A DNA stretch of 20,460 bases. It comes from a virus. Of the stretch, positions 2,865 through 9,548 are shown in pieces. The stretch covers positions 1 to 20,460 of the IMG/VR virus record IMGVR_UViG_3300032242_000790. One strand, given 5' to 3'. Each line of letters begins with the position of its first letter. Positions within the stretch are counted from its first letter, which is position 1. The notes under the pieces are model-generated. The model worked only from the letters and a program-made list of their open reading frames with translations. It ran no database searches and was not told the DNA's origin. Both the position numbers and the translations under genes were made by a program.

Positions 2865-3176
2865 ATGACTGAAAAATGGCAGAAAAAAGAAGGTCAGAAT
2901 AAAAAAGGTGGCCTTAATGAAAAGGGTCGTAAGTCTTACGAGTCTTCCCATCCTGGCTCTGACCTAAAGGCTCCAGTTAAGTCTGGGGATAACCCTCGCC
3001 GAGCGTCCTTCCTTGCCCGTATGGGTAATGCTTCTGGACCTGAGCATAAGCCAAATGGCGAACCTACACGCTTGTTGCTTTCACTACAGGCATGGGGCGC
3101 ATCATCTAAAGCGGATGCTAAAAAGAAAGCCGCCGCTATCTCTAAGCGCAATGACGCAAAGAAAAAGAAAAAGTAA
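2865..3176 (+). CDS. Small basic protein, DUF6321-like, 103 aa
   Basis: The start has a good Shine-Dalgarno (AGGAG, 2854-2858, six bases before ATG). Residues 4-60 (WQKKEGQNKKGG, LNEKGRKSYESSHPGSDLKA, then RRASFLARMG) match my memory of DUF6321-type proteins in aquatic phages, where KGGLNEKGRKSYE, HPGSDLKAPV and RRASFCARM are the recurring elements. Unlike the classic form, the cysteine in RASFCARM is leucine here. The C-terminal 25 residues are almost all Lys and Ala, ending in five lysines. The role is unknown. The high positive charge suggests nucleic-acid or polyanion binding, an inference from composition. It heads a run of five small Lys-rich proteins. Confidence 0.8.
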   Translation: MTEKWQKKEGQNKKGGLNEKGRKSYESSHPGSDLKAPVKSGDNPRRASFLARMGNASGPEHKPNGEPTRLLLSLQAWGASSKADAKKKAAAISKRNDAKKKKK

Positions 3177-3337
3177 TGGCTACTAAAAAAGTATGGGATA
3201 CCCCAGACCCAAGTAAAAAAGATAAGAAGCTTTCCCCTAAGAAAAAAGCTTCTGCCAAAGCTGCTGCTAAAGCCGCTGGTCGTCCTTACCCTAATCTTGT
3301 GGATAACATGAACGCCGCTAAAAAGAAGAAAAAGTAA
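3176..3337 (+). CDS. Very small Lys-rich protein, 53 aa
   Basis: ATG at 3176 overlaps the preceding TAA by one base, and its own TAA (3335-3337) overlaps the next ATG the same way. The product starts MATKKVWDTPDPSKKDKK and ends NMNAAKKKKK; about a third of its residues are lysine and many of the rest are alanine. A short non-basic patch (GRPYPNLVDNMN, residues 35-46) is the only part with distinctive sequence. I do not recognise a family. It lacks a separate Shine-Dalgarno; the purine-rich Lys codons of the upstream gene lie immediately before the start. The exact chaining of stops and starts on both sides supports its reality. Confidence 0.65.
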   Translation: MATKKVWDTPDPSKKDKKLSPKKKASAKAAAKAAGRPYPNLVDNMNAAKKKKK

Positions 3338-3570
3338 TGGCGGCTAAAAAGAAAGAAAACCCTGCTACCCTTAAAGTATCTGGCAAAGTTCACCGTGTCT
3401 ATAAAGACAAAAAAGGTGATGTTGTAGTTGACCATGCTGGTTCTAAAAAGGAAAACGGCAAGTACGATAAAATAGATTTGACCAAAAAGGCTGGTGCCAA
3501 GACGGTTAAAGAAGGTGTCAAAGCCACAAAAGCTTGGCATAAAAACAACCCTCACAAGAAAGGTAAGTAA
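3337..3570 (+). CDS. Small Lys-rich protein, 77 aa
   Basis: The start is fused to the preceding stop (TAATG). Residues 1-55 include a plausible folded beta segment: TLKVSGKVHRVYKDKKGDVV, then VDHAGSKKENGKYDKIDL. It is followed by a Lys-rich tail ending NNPHKKGK. The VHRVYKDKKGDVVV pattern looks like a short beta hairpin. No catalytic motif is visible and I do not recognise the family. Like its neighbours it is strongly basic, has no membrane segment and is translated from a near-continuous chain of tiny ORFs. Confidence 0.7.
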   Translation: MAAKKKENPATLKVSGKVHRVYKDKKGDVVVDHAGSKKENGKYDKIDLTKKAGAKTVKEGVKATKAWHKNNPHKKGK

Positions 3571-3571
3571 C

Positions 3572-3694
3572 ATGTGCAAAGGATGCGGATGTAACTGCGA
3601 TAAGCCAAACTGCAAAGGCAAGTGTGGCACTGGTAAATTTGCTAAGGCTAAGGCTGCGGTAAAGAAAGCTGTCTCTAAGAAGGGTAAGAAGTAA
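3572..3694 (+). CDS. 40-residue Cys-rich/Lys-rich protein (MCKGCGC type)
   Basis: The N-terminus MCKGCGCNCDKPNCKGKCG holds six cysteines at residues 2, 5, 7, 9, 14 and 18, and the C-terminal half is Lys/Ala-rich (ending SKKGKK). I chose ATG 3572, one base after the preceding stop, over an in-frame start at 3494 because the extra 26 residues would lie wholly inside the previous gene in another frame. The dense CxxC/CxC spacing resembles metal-binding or metallothionein-like peptides, but no family can be assigned by eye. The TAA at 3692-3694 overlaps the next ATG by one base. Confidence 0.7.
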   Translation: MCKGCGCNCDKPNCKGKCGTGKFAKAKAAVKKAVSKKGKK

Positions 3695-3867
3695 TGGCTG
3701 CCAAGAAAGATGACAAGAAGCAAGACGCTAAAGCAATGAAGGGCATGTCCCCTGCACAGAAGGCTAAGTTCCAGAAGGAAGACAAGAAGATGGACAAGAA
3801 GCCTATGTCTCGCAAGGAAGACGCCAAGAAAGATGCTGCTCTAGCCAAGAAGATTAAAAAGAAGTAA
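3694..3867 (+). CDS. Very small Lys/Asp/Met-rich protein, 57 aa
   Basis: ATG at 3694 overlaps the preceding TAA. The product (MAAKKDDKKQDAKAMKGMSP through ALAKKIKKK) is almost entirely charged, with alternating Lys and Asp/Glu and five methionines, and should be helical or disordered. No known domain is visible. It is the last of the small basic chain. Fourteen bases after its stop the 13-bp dyad at 3881-3910 begins, which may end the transcript or mark the next control region. Confidence 0.65.
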   Translation: MAAKKDDKKQDAKAMKGMSPAQKAKFQKEDKKMDKKPMSRKEDAKKDAALAKKIKKK

Positions 3868-3880
3868 CTACTTCCAAATG

Positions 3881-3923: not shown

Positions 3924-4655
3924 ATGAGATTCGTATCCTTATTTGCAGGCGTTGGCGGATTTGATTTAGGGCTTGAGCAAGCAGGTCACACCTGTGTAGG
4001 TCAGGTCGAAATCGACAAGAACGCTCAGAAAGTATTAAAGAAGCATTGGCCGAATGTGCCATTGCATGACGATGTTACTACGGCTATAGATTGGGCTGAT
4101 GAAATTGGACTCACAGGAAATGTTGACCTTGTTTGCGGAGGATTCCCATGTCAAGATGTCTCAGTTGCAGGACGCAGGGCTGGGTTGGCTGGCGAACGTT
4201 CTGGACTTTTCTTTGACGCACTCGCTTTTGCGACGCACGTCAAAGCCAAAAGAATTATCTTGGAGAATGTGCCAGGACTTCTATCAAGCAACCAAGGACG
4301 GGATTTCGGAGTCGTCCTCACTAATCTGGCCGACGCAGGGTATAGCAACATCGAATGGCGTGTTCTTGATTCGCAATTCTTCGGAGTCCCCCAACGACGC
4401 AGAAGAGTCTTCATTGTTGCAAGTCTTGGAACAGAACCCTTCAAGCAAATACTCTCTGAGCGAGAAAGCAGCACAGGGGATTATTCGCAGGGCAAATCGT
4501 CGGGGCAAGACTCTGCCGACTCAACTTCAGGAAGCGCTGGAGAGCATAGCGAACCAGTAGCAAGGATGCTGGGCTTTGGTCACTATGCCATGGATGACAA
4601 GGCTTCAGCGCTTAAAGCTCGTGACTACAAGGACGCTACGGACTTAGTGCTGTGA
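3924..4655 (+). CDS. C5 cytosine DNA methyltransferase, N-terminal catalytic part (split gene, motifs I-VIII)
   Basis: The product transfers a methyl group from S-adenosylmethionine to cytosine C5 in DNA. Visible motifs: SAM-binding motif I FVSLFAGVGGFDLG (residues 3-16), catalytic motif IV GGFPCQDVS with Cys76, motif VI ENV (114-116) and motif VIII QRRRRVFIV (157-165). After residue 165 the sequence becomes a Ser/Gly/Asp-rich linker and then GFGHYAMDDKASALKARDYK, the usual entry to the target-recognition region of phage enzymes. Translation stops at TGA 4653-4655 before motifs IX and X, which are in the next ORF. I chose ATG 3924 because C5 enzymes normally start a few residues before FxxLFAGxGG; a TTG at 3897 lies in the loop of the inverted repeat. 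No restriction endonuclease is adjacent, so it is probably an orphan enzyme protecting phage DNA. Confidence 0.9.
   Translation: MRFVSLFAGVGGFDLGLEQAGHTCVGQVEIDKNAQKVLKKHWPNVPLHDDVTTAIDWADEIGLTGNVDLVCGGFPCQDVSVAGRRAGLAGERSGLFFDALAFATHVKAKRIILENVPGLLSSNQGRDFGVVLTNLADAGYSNIEWRVLDSQFFGVPQRRRRVFIVASLGTEPFKQILSERESSTGDYSQGKSSGQDSADSTSGSAGEHSEPVARMLGFGHYAMDDKASALKARDYKDATDLVL
4099..4560 (+). other. Overlapping +1-frame ORF inside the methyltransferase, 153 codons
   Basis: This frame is open from ATG 4099 to TAG 4558-4560, entirely within the methyltransferase first half. Its C-terminal half reads DGISESSS, then SSESPNDAEESSLLQVLEQN, then KYSLSEKAAQGIIRRANRRG and KTLP. I recall closely similar strings (KYYLSPKAxxGILRRAxKRGKxLP preceded by LNTSExPxDA) in annotated phage proteins often found beside C5 methyltransferases. 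The strings correspond to the +1 translation of the motif VIII region (LDSQFFGVPQRRRRVFIV) and the following linker. It may be an overprinted real protein, or an apparent family created because the methyltransferase frame is conserved. No strong ribosome-binding site precedes ATG 4099. Confidence 0.35.
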
Positions 4656-5314
4656 TTGTCTTTACTAAGGCTCGTCGGGCACAGAGCGATACTGATTATG
4701 AAACTTGGATTGCTGGAGAGGTAACCCCTACATTGAACGTATTTGATAACGGCACTGAGACACGGGCTACCGTGCTCATTATTGATGGAACCCGAGTGGG
4801 AGATGTGAGAGTCTATGCTGATGACCTTATGCAAACGGTTATTCAAAGGTGGGGAACAGGAGGAGGAAACGTGCCATACGTATTCCCAATACACGATACG
4901 GCAACCCGCTCTGTGGGTAAGCGGAAGCACTCAGATGGTACCTATTCCCTTGACGGCAAAGGTAATGGGCTTGGAGTCGGAGAGGATGGAGACCCGATGA
5001 ATACTCTAACTAGTGGTGACCGCCATGCGGTTGCCTACAGCATTCGTGAGGATGCCAAGGCTAACAACTTCTCGGCTACCGAGATTAACACAGCAAGGGC
5101 GCTACAAGCCCTTCAGCCGTCCGTACAGAGCCATCACGCTCAGACCTTTATCGCAGAACCAGCCGTGGTTCGTCGCCTCACTCCGTTGGAGTGTGAGCGT
5201 CTACAGGGCTTTCCTGACGGTTGGACTGAAGACCAAGCAGATACCAATCGATACAAGCAGATGGGTAACGCTGTTACCGTCAATGTAATTAATTGGATTG
5301 GTAATCGACTATAA
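4652..5314 (+). CDS. C5 cytosine DNA methyltransferase, C-terminal part (target recognition, motifs IX-X)
   Basis: GTG 4652 overlaps the TGA of the catalytic half (GTGA), in the -1 frame relative to it. The 220-residue product starts MIVFTKARRAQSDTDYETW, carries phage-type target-recognition sequence (TLNVFDNGTETRATVLIIDG; GTRVGDVRVY; GTGGGNVPYV; SIREDAKANNFSATE), and ends with motif IX RRLTPLECERLQGFPDGW (174-191) and motif X YKQMGNAVTV (201-210). Both halves are intact up to the junction and together contain every motif of a single-chain enzyme. It could be a true second subunit, as in split enzymes such as M.AquI, a product of -1 frameshifting, a recent one-base deletion or a sequencing error. 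The frame is open from 4625, so the two frames overlap by about 30 bases. No classical X XXY YYZ slippery heptamer is evident in that overlap. Confidence 0.88.
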   Translation: MIVFTKARRAQSDTDYETWIAGEVTPTLNVFDNGTETRATVLIIDGTRVGDVRVYADDLMQTVIQRWGTGGGNVPYVFPIHDTATRSVGKRKHSDGTYSLDGKGNGLGVGEDGDPMNTLTSGDRHAVAYSIREDAKANNFSATEINTARALQALQPSVQSHHAQTFIAEPAVVRRLTPLECERLQGFPDGWTEDQADTNRYKQMGNAVTVNVINWIGNRL

Positions 5315-6551: not shown

Positions 6552-9548
6552 GTGGCTAATTACACAAAGCCAGGTGTGTACGTTCAGGAAACGTTGACGC
6601 CTAATGTACCCATCACTAATGTTAATGCAACCACAGTTGCTACTTTCATTGGTTCTGCAGACCGAGGCCCGACAACCAGCGTCACTTACAGTGGTTCAGC
6701 AAACGTTGTAGGAACAGCCACCACTATTACTAGTTGGTCGCAGTTTAATAATTTATTCGAGTTTGGTAATGCTGTTACAGCATTTGATTCAACTATTAAT
6801 ACAACTGTTGGTTCAACTAACGCTGGAGTTTCTCCAGGAAAAGACTTGAAGTACGCAGTCAAATCTTTCTTTGACAACGGTGGCTCGCAAGCTGTAATTC
6901 TTCGTGACATTAACTCAAACGCTACCGCAACAACCCTTGACTTGCGTGACGGTAACTCAATCACTTCTCAAAACAGTGTATGGACATTTGACGGCTCTAC
7001 TGCGGGTAGCATTACAATTGCCGCTACTTCAGGAACCCCATTCTCAGGATTTGAGGCTGGTCGTGTAATTGCCCTTACAGGTATTTCAAATTCCAGCTTT
7101 ACCGTGCTTAACGGAAAGAACTGGGTTGTATCTTCCGTAGACGCTGGCGGAACTTACATCAAGATTCCTTACAACGGAACTATTGCAGCGCCTACAGCAC
7201 TATCTATTAGCGCAATTTCCGCTGGTACAGTAACCACAGGCATCATTGGAACTGGCGCCGCTAATACAATCAACGTAGGCTCTTCATCAAGTGTTGCAGT
7301 TAACCAAGCTGTTACGGGTACAGGTATTGGTACGGGTGCCACAGTTCAGACAATCACAGCCACAACAATTACAACAACAGGTACTGGCTCTGCTGGCCAA
7401 GCAATTATTACTGTTACAAGCACCGCTGGTGTTGCTGTTGGTATGACTATCACTGGCACAAATGTTGGAACTAACTCAGTAGTTTCTTCTATTGGCTCAG
7501 GTACCGTAACAGCTTCGGTAAACATCCAGACGGGTGGGCTTTCTGGCTCAAACAACATTACTTTTGGTGGCGCAACGCTACAGTTGTCAGTAGTTAATAC
7601 AGGTTCTGGCGCTGCTGCTGTAAATGGTAATGGTACTTTCTACACAGGTGTTGTTACCTACACGGCTGCCCCTGGAAGCCTTACAGTTGGACAGCCAGTA
7701 ACTATTTCTAGTGCCTCGACATCAGGATACAACGGTACGTTTACTGTAGCCACGGTAGGCGGAAGTAACTTTACTGTAAACGGAAATTACACCACAGGCG
7801 GTTCTACATCAACTGCTTCTGGTGCTTACACACAAGCTCAGGCTTATACCGCTACCTCCCCTATTGTTATTCAGGGTGGTGCACAAAGCCCTAACCGCAC
7901 ACTAAGTATTTCTGCTAATAGCGAGGGCACATGGGGCAACTACCTATGGACAGCGATAACTCCAAGTATTCAAACTGGAGCGTTTGACCTTACGGTGTTC
8001 TACTCGTTAACTGCTACTACCTCAGCAGACTTGACTAACGCCAACGTTGTAGAGTCATTCCAGAACCTTACAACAGACTCTTCAAAATCTAACTATGTCG
8101 CCAAAATTATTACAGCGTCCACATCTAGTTGGGTTTCTGTAACCGACGTCGGCGCTACTGCAACTACTTTGTCTAGTGTAACAGGCTCAATTAATACCAA
8201 CACACTATCGGTTGCTTCAGGCGTAGCATCACTTGTAGTTGGCATGTCTGTTTCTGGTTACTCTGCCGTTCCAGCAGGAACATTGATTACCAACATTTCA
8301 GGTACGACAGTTACTTTGTCTTATCCATTGACAGGTAACATTACAACCTCTAACCCAATTACGTTCTCTCCTCCTTCAAATGTTTTTGACCATCCAAAGT
8401 TTACTTCTTACTGGTCAACTACTCCGTCTTCAGTTAACTTTAGCCAAACGGATTACCAGTTTGCATGGAATGTATCTAAGGTAACTACAGGAATTCCTTT
8501 GGGAAGTTCTACTCCAATTACATACAATGCCGTAAAGCTTGGAGTTACTTCATCAGATACTGCAACCTACCCTGCTGTGACTTCTTACGCCAATAGCAAC
8601 GTAGTAACAGCAGGAAAAGTTGTGTACGCAGCCAGTGCAGGCTCACTTGGCGGGACAAGCTCTGACCTTACTAACGTGGTTCTTCCTCGTCTGGATAGCA
8701 TTAATAGCCCTCTAGTTATTAACTACCCTAAGAAGACAGACGCTAGTTCAGTAAACGCTTTGCTAACTTATGCCTGCAACCGTGGAGATTCATTTGTTAT
8801 TATCGATGGCGGTGGCTCTTTAAGCAATAGCGCTTGGTCTGCAACTAACTCTGTTACTGACGTAATCAATAATGGTAAGTCGTACACCCAGCACTTAAAC
8901 TTTGGTGCAATTTACTACCCTAACCTCAGCGTTTACGACCCTGCAAAGAACAACAACGACACAATAACAATCCCGCCTGGCGGAGCAGTTGCTGCTGTTT
9001 ACGTAAACACCGACTCTTCACGTGGAGTTTACAAAGCACCTGCAGGCGTTTCAGCAGCGCTTTCTAACGTAGTTCAAGTACCTGTATTAACTAATGACGA
9101 CTTCAGTACGGTCGCTAACTCTAACCCGTATGTCAACATTATTCGCTTAGTATCTGGCGCTTACTGTGTCATGGGCGCTCGTACTATCTACAGCATCACG
9201 TCAGACAAGTATGTTCCTATTCGTCGCTCAATCAATTACTTAAGTTCTGCACTTAAGGAAGTAACAGCGTTTGCTGTGTTTGAGCCTAACGATGCAGTCC
9301 TGTGGAGCAAAGTAACTTCAGTAGTTAATAGCTTCTTGTACGATTACTGGCGTTCAGGTGGCTTGGCTGGAGCAACTGCTCCCGCTGCGTTCTACGTTAA
9401 GTGTGATGCAGACAACAACACAGGAACATCTGTCAGCAACGGTGAACTACGCATTGAAATTGGCGTAGCTCTTGAGCAACCTGCTGAATTTGTAATTATT
9501 CGTATTGGTCAAATCAACGGCGGTTCCACCGTCACAGCCTCAGTCTAA
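6552..9548 (+). CDS. Contractile tail sheath protein, 998 aa, with large inserted beta modules
   Basis: The subunit forms the contractile outer tube around the tail tube. GTG 6552 has a good Shine-Dalgarno (AAGGAG, 6541-6546). The N-terminus MANYTKPGVYVQETLTPN is the classic sheath opening. Core elements follow: SANSEGTWGNYLW (about 454-466), IYYPNLSVYDPA, TIPPGGAVAAVYVNTD and SRGVYKAPAGV (about 787-836), and the C-terminal domain KYVPIRRSINYLSSAL, FAVFEPNDAVLWSKV, FLYDYWRSGGLAGATAPAAF, ending in PAEFVIIRIGQI. The protein is much longer than typical sheaths of 400-700 residues. The excess lies at about residues 130-445 and 540-610, in Thr/Ser/Gly-rich modules such as VGMTITGTNVGTNSVVSSI and VGMSVSGYSAVPAGTLITNI. 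These probably project from the tail surface. The next gene, the tube, follows after 11 bases. Confidence 0.95.
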   Translation: MANYTKPGVYVQETLTPNVPITNVNATTVATFIGSADRGPTTSVTYSGSANVVGTATTITSWSQFNNLFEFGNAVTAFDSTINTTVGSTNAGVSPGKDLKYAVKSFFDNGGSQAVILRDINSNATATTLDLRDGNSITSQNSVWTFDGSTAGSITIAATSGTPFSGFEAGRVIALTGISNSSFTVLNGKNWVVSSVDAGGTYIKIPYNGTIAAPTALSISAISAGTVTTGIIGTGAANTINVGSSSSVAVNQAVTGTGIGTGATVQTITATTITTTGTGSAGQAIITVTSTAGVAVGMTITGTNVGTNSVVSSIGSGTVTASVNIQTGGLSGSNNITFGGATLQLSVVNTGSGAAAVNGNGTFYTGVVTYTAAPGSLTVGQPVTISSASTSGYNGTFTVATVGGSNFTVNGNYTTGGSTSTASGAYTQAQAYTATSPIVIQGGAQSPNRTLSISANSEGTWGNYLWTAITPSIQTGAFDLTVFYSLTATTSADLTNANVVESFQNLTTDSSKSNYVAKIITASTSSWVSVTDVGATATTLSSVTGSINTNTLSVASGVASLVVGMSVSGYSAVPAGTLITNISGTTVTLSYPLTGNITTSNPITFSPPSNVFDHPKFTSYWSTTPSSVNFSQTDYQFAWNVSKVTTGIPLGSSTPITYNAVKLGVTSSDTATYPAVTSYANSNVVTAGKVVYAASAGSLGGTSSDLTNVVLPRLDSINSPLVINYPKKTDASSVNALLTYACNRGDSFVIIDGGGSLSNSAWSATNSVTDVINNGKSYTQHLNFGAIYYPNLSVYDPAKNNNDTITIPPGGAVAAVYVNTDSSRGVYKAPAGVSAALSNVVQVPVLTNDDFSTVANSNPYVNIIRLVSGAYCVMGARTIYSITSDKYVPIRRSINYLSSALKEVTAFAVFEPNDAVLWSKVTSVVNSFLYDYWRSGGLAGATAPAAFYVKCDADNNTGTSVSNGELRIEIGVALEQPAEFVIIRIGQINGGSTVTASV

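Follow-up and report, generated by a model that had tools for sequence, protein, structure and literature searches.

A conserved +1-frame gene nested in phage C5-cytosine methyltransferases combines an overprinted arm with a displaced piece of the enzyme

Introduction

For M.EcoHK31I, a C5-cytosine methyltransferase (MTase), the coding sequence of the smaller polypeptide lies within that of the larger one, in a different frame. M.EcoHK31I is described as a two-polypeptide enzyme whose smaller chain carries motif IX only (PMC3404938), and in M.AquI, as described in the same source, motifs I-VIII and motifs IX-X are on separate polypeptides, with IX-X on the smaller (PMC3404938). Split fragments of monomeric MTases are also reported to reassemble in E. 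coli (PMC3404938; PMC3439449). A different arrangement is given for ShiLan, in which a phage DNA methylase contains an out-of-frame HNH insertion, a homing element of patchy distribution (PMC11855218).

Here we analyzed a 20,460-base phage record (the window; all positions are those of the whole stretch) in which an open reading frame (ORF) lies in the +1 frame of a C5-cytosine MTase. The original prediction, made from the window's letters, had singled out this ORF and had weighed genuine overprinting against a shadow frame or a frameshifted remnant of the MTase.

Results

The MTase of the window is encoded by two ORFs and sits among structural genes. The N-terminal part, which we call frame 0, runs from ATG 3924 to a stop at 4653-4655 and contains motifs I to VIII. 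Motifs IX and X are found in a second ORF, whose GTG start overlaps the stop of the first; the account in the original prediction did not include this split. The 153-codon +1 ORF that it described is present and nested within frame 0, and the strings that it quoted are there too, read from motif VIII (QFFGVPQRRRRVFIV) and from the linker 3' of motif VIII. The features are as follows.

3924..4655, + strand, stop included: C5-cytosine MTase N-terminal part, motifs I to VIII, frame 0 (PF00145 1-168, E 2.3e-52; alignment)
4099..4560, + strand, stop included: overlapping +1 ORF, 153 codons, ATG, start codon uncertain (PHROG_16143, E 7.3e-5; alignment)
4099..4404, + strand: overprinted N-terminal arm of the +1 product, covering MTase motif IV to VIII (predicted to be disordered; its profile matches a second clade's +1 frame over 95 columns)
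4115..4125, + strand: candidate start signal AGGA (4115-4118), 4 nt 5' of TTG 4123 and 10 nt 5' of TTG 4129
4383..4415, + strand: MTase motif VIII, frame 0 (GVPQRRRRVFI), overlapping the beginning of the +1 C-terminal module (sequence, alignment, offsets in 304/307 relatives)
4405..4557, + strand: +1 C-terminal module (ESSLLQVLEQ...KYSLSEKAAQGIIRRANRRGKTLP...), a relative of an in-frame post-motif-VIII segment of some ordinary C5 MTases (pLDDT, hhalign)
4652..5314, + strand: separate ORF in frame +2 relative to frame 0, carrying the C-terminal MTase motifs IX and X (PF00145 220-321, E 6.3e-16)

Elsewhere in the window, a series of short lysine-rich ORFs, several with terminal lysine runs, lies directly 5' of the MTase (2865-3868) and possibly encodes small basic DNA- or virion-associated proteins. 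A 998-residue tail-sheath protein (6552-9548) has a C-terminal 245 residues that match PHROG_17610 (E 1.3e-38) and a long middle part that looks repetitive.

We compared the +1 frame with synonymous shuffles. For the window, the MTase protein and its own codon counts were kept through 20,000 shuffles, and 4099-4557 was stop-free in the +1 frame in 0.045% of them (5.2 stops expected). For its relatives, we fetched 80 viral MTases by frame-0 patterns alone. A first pass located 72, and from motif IV to motif VIII+46 the +1 frame was open in 62 of these (0.68 expected), with 11 stops in total against 350.6 expected; the +2 frame of the same MTases held 402 stops against 502 expected. With a better locator all 80 were found (78 distinct), and the +1 frame was open in 67 of the 78 (0.91 expected).

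The positional profile of this stop-free zone was sharp-edged. No +1 stop was found from motif IV+15 to motif VIII+49, where most 10-codon bins had an expectation of 10 to 45; just beyond the edges, +1 stops were at or above expectation, and the +2 frame had no such zone. The few core +1 stops clustered near motif IV, before or near the presumed start. Homologous MTases with +1 stops and nothing else changed, which the original prediction had named as evidence against itself, did not appear in that form: core stops occurred in 10 of 72 (11 in total), all of them between about motif IV-5 and motif IV+14.

A Firmicute set, fetched by frame 0 with the MTase of Streptococcus phage MM1 (79 loci, 67 distinct and located), had 67 +1 stops against 409.9 expected. 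Only 18 of the 67 stayed open throughout the counted stretch, as the +1 ORF ends earlier in this set, 30 to 49 codons past motif VIII in 51 of them. The relatives are not independent, since both frame-0 sets together (145 distinct sequences) comprise 15 clusters with identity below 60%, and none of the three shuffle tests takes phylogeny into account; among the 15 cluster representatives, there were 4 +1 stops against 63 from motif IV+5 to VIII+25, and 12 were open (0.66 expected).

As controls, we took PF00145 loci from 60 genomes of one phylum (29 chromosomal loci, 21 located and distinct). These 21 ordinary chromosomal MTases do carry +1 stops, but without the +1 family altogether: 135 stops were counted against 135.1 expected, and none was open. 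Thus, the null model is well behaved, and the property belongs to the clade and not to C5 MTases at large. A selected +1 gene almost certainly exists, and the observation behind the original prediction is confirmed as real and beyond chance.

The peptide in this frame is also conserved. Scored with an HMM of the +1 product, the real peptide of phage-type loci exceeded all 20 of its own synonymous shuffles in 78/78, 74/74, 75/75, and 67/67 loci (294/294), although in two of these four sets positivity is by construction because they were fetched by the +1 motif; this was so for 1 of the 21 ordinary MTases. With rows containing stops in either frame dropped and the linker alignments guided by the +1 frame, mean identity in the linker 3' of motif VIII was 0.654 in the +1 frame versus 0.466 in frame 0 (+1 better in 95.2% of 7,140 pairs, 229 loci). 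For the catalytic part 5' of motif VIII, the corresponding values were 0.319 and 0.584 (204 loci).

These results bear on a further reading of the +1 ORF, in which it is no more than a constrained MTase's shadow or a remnant that is degenerating. The two frames do share letters, and the C-terminal module is a former MTase segment (see below), as such a reading would have it. However, a null that keeps the protein and its codon counts predicts many stops, ordinary MTases fit this null, and the linker is better conserved in the +1 frame than in frame 0. These data already contradict the shadow or remnant explanation, which would require some constraint at the nucleotide level able to imitate a start site, a stop-free zone, and peptide conservation together; we regard this explanation as extremely improbable.

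Start signals were frequent among the relatives. A Shine-Dalgarno sequence of 5 nt or longer preceded an in-frame start codon close to motif IV in 41/77, 52/74, 37/74, and 58/67 loci of the four sets, where synonymous shuffles gave expectations of 7.2, 8.5, 7.3, and 8.5, respectively. Cluster representatives had such a sequence in 8 of 15 cases (1.5 expected) and ordinary MTases in 0 of 21 (0.5 expected). In MM1, AAAGGAG lies 12 nt 5' of the annotated ATG of the +1 ORF, a spacing longer than usual, and phage P1 has only GGAG, 7 nt 5' of one ATG. The window has no Shine-Dalgarno sequence of at least 5 nt: AGGA alone is found near TTG 4123 and TTG 4129, and by the criterion used there is none at ATG 4099, at ATG 4120, or at the MTase's ATG 3924. 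Independent initiation is thus well supported for the family and weakly for the window.

The original prediction had likened the +1 ORF to a recurring phage protein family, and the search results agree. A tblastn search with the +1 product gave 205 matching phage records (E<=0.01), of which 14 covered at least 80% of the query, and 13 of 15 +1 products matched PHROG_16143. The window's own match to this family is weak (E 7.3e-5) but places it among the members. In MM1, the +1 ORF is annotated as ORF14, which fits PHROG_16143 over 1-139 of 139 (E 5.3e-82), and both it and the window's ORF are nested in the +1 frame of a C5 MTase. The further claim that near-identical strings had been annotated independently holds for MM1 ORF14 and for nothing else among the 120 matches listed; in four opened records labeled "hypothetical protein," the label belonged to the MTase-frame gene and not to the +1 ORF. 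The dmt gene of P1 has a 163-codon +1 ORF of which only the C-terminal part was matched, and its product gave no match to PHROG_16143 at E 0.001.

To describe the setting of the family, we scanned for loci by the +1 motif. Among viral sequences, at least 595 of at least 600 matched stretches encoded a relative, and in the best 80, which were kept, MTase motif VIII lay in the -1 frame in 80/80. In bacterial genomes, 194 of 237 matched stretches encoded a relative; of the best 80, which span Pseudomonadota, Acidobacteriota, Bacteroidota, and Bacillota by record title, 61 were nested by pattern and the other 19 by reading the translation. No free-standing member was therefore present among the best 80 viral and best 80 bacterial-genome loci (160/160 nested). 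A profile search of 150 genomes likewise yielded none, the 5 places found in 3 genomes all being +1 to a PF00145 place by arithmetic. Computation directly shows that the +1 frame is under selection, that many relatives have start signals, and that nesting is obligate in the loci seen.

Domain libraries added little. The +1 product had nothing in Pfam at the cut-off, and 14 C-terminal members had only a FitA-like RHH (0.046) and an SH2 (0.14) match, in one member each; an NCBIfam search gave nothing convincing, and PADLOC defence families gave no match beyond Type II MTase models (E 0.001 and 0.042). No description of this +1 overlap was found in literature titles and abstracts, which covered few subscription papers.

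We modeled the +1 product with AlphaFold2 using the window's sequence and 69 relatives. Residues 111-153 were predicted with a pLDDT of 89-96, and residues 1-75 had a pLDDT below 50 and no confident fold. A second family member, modeled alike, gave 88-96 for residues 111-140 and 84 for residues 141-150. A PDB fold search gave no match at E<=0.001 (best 2.2), and PDB sequence searches gave none with alignment A5 (E<=1) or alignment A10 (E<=10). At E<=0.001, a fold search of BFVD had two matches, a phage cytosine MTase and an 81-residue mycobacteriophage protein.

The C-terminal module has a counterpart in ordinary MTases. Eleven of them, picked by eye out of the 21, carry the segment LGxILExxVDEKYxLSxK..G..RR in frame 0, 28-40 residues past the Q of motif VIII; because most of the other 10 lack it, the segment is not universal in C5 MTases. 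By hhalign, the +1 alignment matched ordinary MTases with P values of 9.1e-5 to 3.8e-4, and the +1 C-terminal alignment did so with P values of 2.5e-5 against all 21 controls and 9e-6 against the 11-MTase subset. We then built a segment HMM from the 11 ordinary MTases alone, with no phage sequence. It scored best in the +1 frame in all 307 located phage-type loci (319 fetched); at E<1, it matched the +1 frame in 268/307 and frame 0 and +2 in none. The window alone gave 4.9 bits (E 1.4), with +1 the best of three frames. These matches show that the C-terminal module is related to the ordinary MTase segment and indicate that the +1 frame now holds the beginning of the MTase small domain, displaced from frame 0.

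This relationship argues against a product with a job of its own, such as regulation through DNA binding or anti-restriction, that leaves the MTase uncompleted. Such a protein would leave the same evidence of a translated gene (stops, HMM scores, and start signals), the C-terminal module is basic (pI 9.5), and MTases such as P1 dmt have motifs IX-X in one frame-0 chain and might act alone. Nevertheless, the MTase segment that the conserved module matches occupies the corresponding position in the enzyme, nesting was complete in the best viral and bacterial-genome loci, and PADLOC and Pfam gave no family beyond the MTase models. We therefore consider an independent role unlikely.

The position of the module also constrains how it could be joined to the MTase. 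In 304/307 loci, the start of the +1 LxxVLE shares its letters with the frame-0 strand RVFIVG, 7 to 12 codons past the Q of motif VIII, so that no single simple +1 shift yields one chain with both. Programmed +1 frameshifting at motif VIII, which would fuse motifs I-VIII to the displaced segment without a separate +1 protein, has in its favor that the +1 frame contains the segment immediately downstream and that the arginine codons of motif VIII could be a slip site. Yet the +1 frame is open from motif IV on, far upstream of such a site, and has start signals there, and a fusion would lose the strand after QRRRR. The shared letters and the open upstream arm favor two polypeptides, and frameshifting appears quite improbable.

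The C-terminal half of the MTase is less fixed in position. In 86 loci including the window, motif IX was in frame 0 relative to the N-terminal half in 21, in +1 in 37, and in +2 in 9, and it was not found in 19. This half is a separate ORF in many relatives (L007-L096), as in the window. When motif IX was in frame 0, it shared an uninterrupted ORF with motif VIII in 11 of 21 loci; when in +1, it shared the ORF of the +1 product in 3 of 37 (L046, L058, and L089). Thus, the C-terminal half changes frame freely and the +1 ORF stays. The window-type +1 product itself had no motif IX by hhalign of its alignment against that of C-terminal halves (A4 against A9, E 0.69).

In two of these loci (L046, 2625-3569; L058, 2661-3575), the +1 ORF continues stop-free through motif IX (RRLTPxECxRLQ), with arm, module, and C-terminal motif in one chain.

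Two of the 15 +1 products matched PHROG_1008, the family of a second MTase clade, with GAPH in motif VIII. In 100 genomes, PHROG_1008 had 15 places in 8, and the 9 loci that were read all had an MTase-like frame at -1. We fetched 80 viral MTases of this clade by frame 0 and located 69, of which 66 were distinct (L414-L493; also L399-L409). Their +1 frame held 9 stops against 204.7 expected and was open in 62 of 66 (3.9 expected), and 21 of 66 had a Shine-Dalgarno sequence of at least 5 nt (4.0 expected). The +1 ORF is longer in this clade and ends in a motif-IX-like LNPxWxExLMGFP in 45/69, with WPTP-like stretches between; hhalign places this stretch on C5 motif IX (E 2.3e-5, prob 76). A canonical motif IX was found in the frame-0 ORFs of 0/69. 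The post-VIII segment HMM matched 0/69 in any frame. PDB sequences matched by this clade were two DNA MTase chains at the motif-IX place, neither significant (E 1.5 and 1.6). The arms of the two clades align over 95 columns (prob 98.7, E 2.2e-16), a score to which common frame-0 ancestry contributes.

Discussion

The original prediction's interpretation is partly supported. Of the alternatives that it separated, a selected, translated second frame is supported by the sharp-edged stop depletion, by starts and ribosome-binding sites in many relatives, by the HMM scores, and by absence of the pattern in 21 ordinary MTases; a mere shadow is not supported. Part of the remnant alternative was also right, in that the conserved C-terminal module is a displaced MTase piece, yet frame 0 is also open. 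The +1 product is thus neither a mere shadow nor wholly new but an overprinted arm joined to a frame-displaced piece of the enzyme.

Probably, the +1 ORF is a real overlapping gene whose product joins the MTase and supplies the displaced segment in trans. A ribosome on the MTase message would initiate internally, close to motif IV and in the +1 frame, and translation would yield a protein of ~150 residues, with the overprinted N-terminal arm followed by a basic helical module. This module would be the small domain's beginning, displaced from the MTase frame, which lacks that segment; the +1 protein would join the MTase polypeptide and provide the segment in trans. The enzyme would then be assembled from overlapping genes, with three pieces in the version found in the window (3924-4655, 4099-4560, and 4652-5314). 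On balance, we favor a trans-acting piece of the MTase as the identity of the +1 product; in this phage, such a protein would be made, would bind the MTase, and would be needed for activity.

More tentatively, many phage and prophage C5 MTases, P1 dmt included, may be obligate multi-polypeptide enzymes whose small domain begins on a +1-frame protein with its own start. This broader proposal, which we hold as possible but a little short of probable, would make the overlap older than the split of the two clades, with motif IX on the second protein of one of them; the arm would have been born by overprinting on motifs IV-VIII, and the window would represent a three-piece version.

If this is correct, a familiar phage enzyme is being annotated minus one piece: the MTase frame has an out-of-frame stretch where the small domain should begin, and the missing segment sits on a hidden gene. 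Where phage MTases are cloned and expressed from the frame-0 ORF without the internal start, the enzyme might be inactive or altered, and specificity assignments could be affected. The locus would also be an ancient, widespread, and clearly selected same-strand overlap on a well-understood catalytic fold, and it would bear on the origin of overlapping genes, being part displaced domain and part new protein.

Among described cases, ShiLan resembles the window in that a phage DNA methylase gene harbors a second frame (PMC11855218). As described there, however, that frame is an inserted HNH nuclease element, whereas the window-type ORF overprints the catalytic core itself; Pfam placed no HNH family in the window's +1 product or in the 14 C-terminal members. 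PHROG_16143 includes the MM1 ORF14 sequence and is the same family as the window's +1 product, but the library names it DNA methyltransferase, with the overlap unmentioned. In the PHROG_1008 clade, the +1 overlap covers the same region of the C5 MTase, and there is a stop-free zone and a related N-terminal arm; the clade differs in its longer product, in the motif-IX-like end, and in lacking the post-VIII module.

M.AquI has the same I-VIII/IX-X split as 3924-4655 and 4652-5314 in the window, where assembly of the enzyme is predicted. It is set apart by its description and not by its sequence, since as described (PMC3404938) it is without a third, overlapping +1 gene. M.EcoHK31I was likewise likened to the window by description and not by its sequence; a plasmid search with a second-clade product returned 7 records, none from E. 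coli, and thus did not yield an EcoHK31I sequence. In M.EcoHK31I, as in the window, the smaller product is read in a frame that overlaps the larger one. For an enzyme of this type, both polypeptides would be needed for methylation, as is predicted for the window. Two-polypeptide C5 MTases are known (PMC3404938), and we thus think of the +1 product as a small subunit supplying the displaced segment. M.EcoHK31I, as described, is a C5 MTase with a small chain supplying a small-domain element (PMC3404938), but that chain carries motif IX, whereas the window's +1 product carries the post-VIII segment and its motif IX lies in the ORF at 4652-5314.
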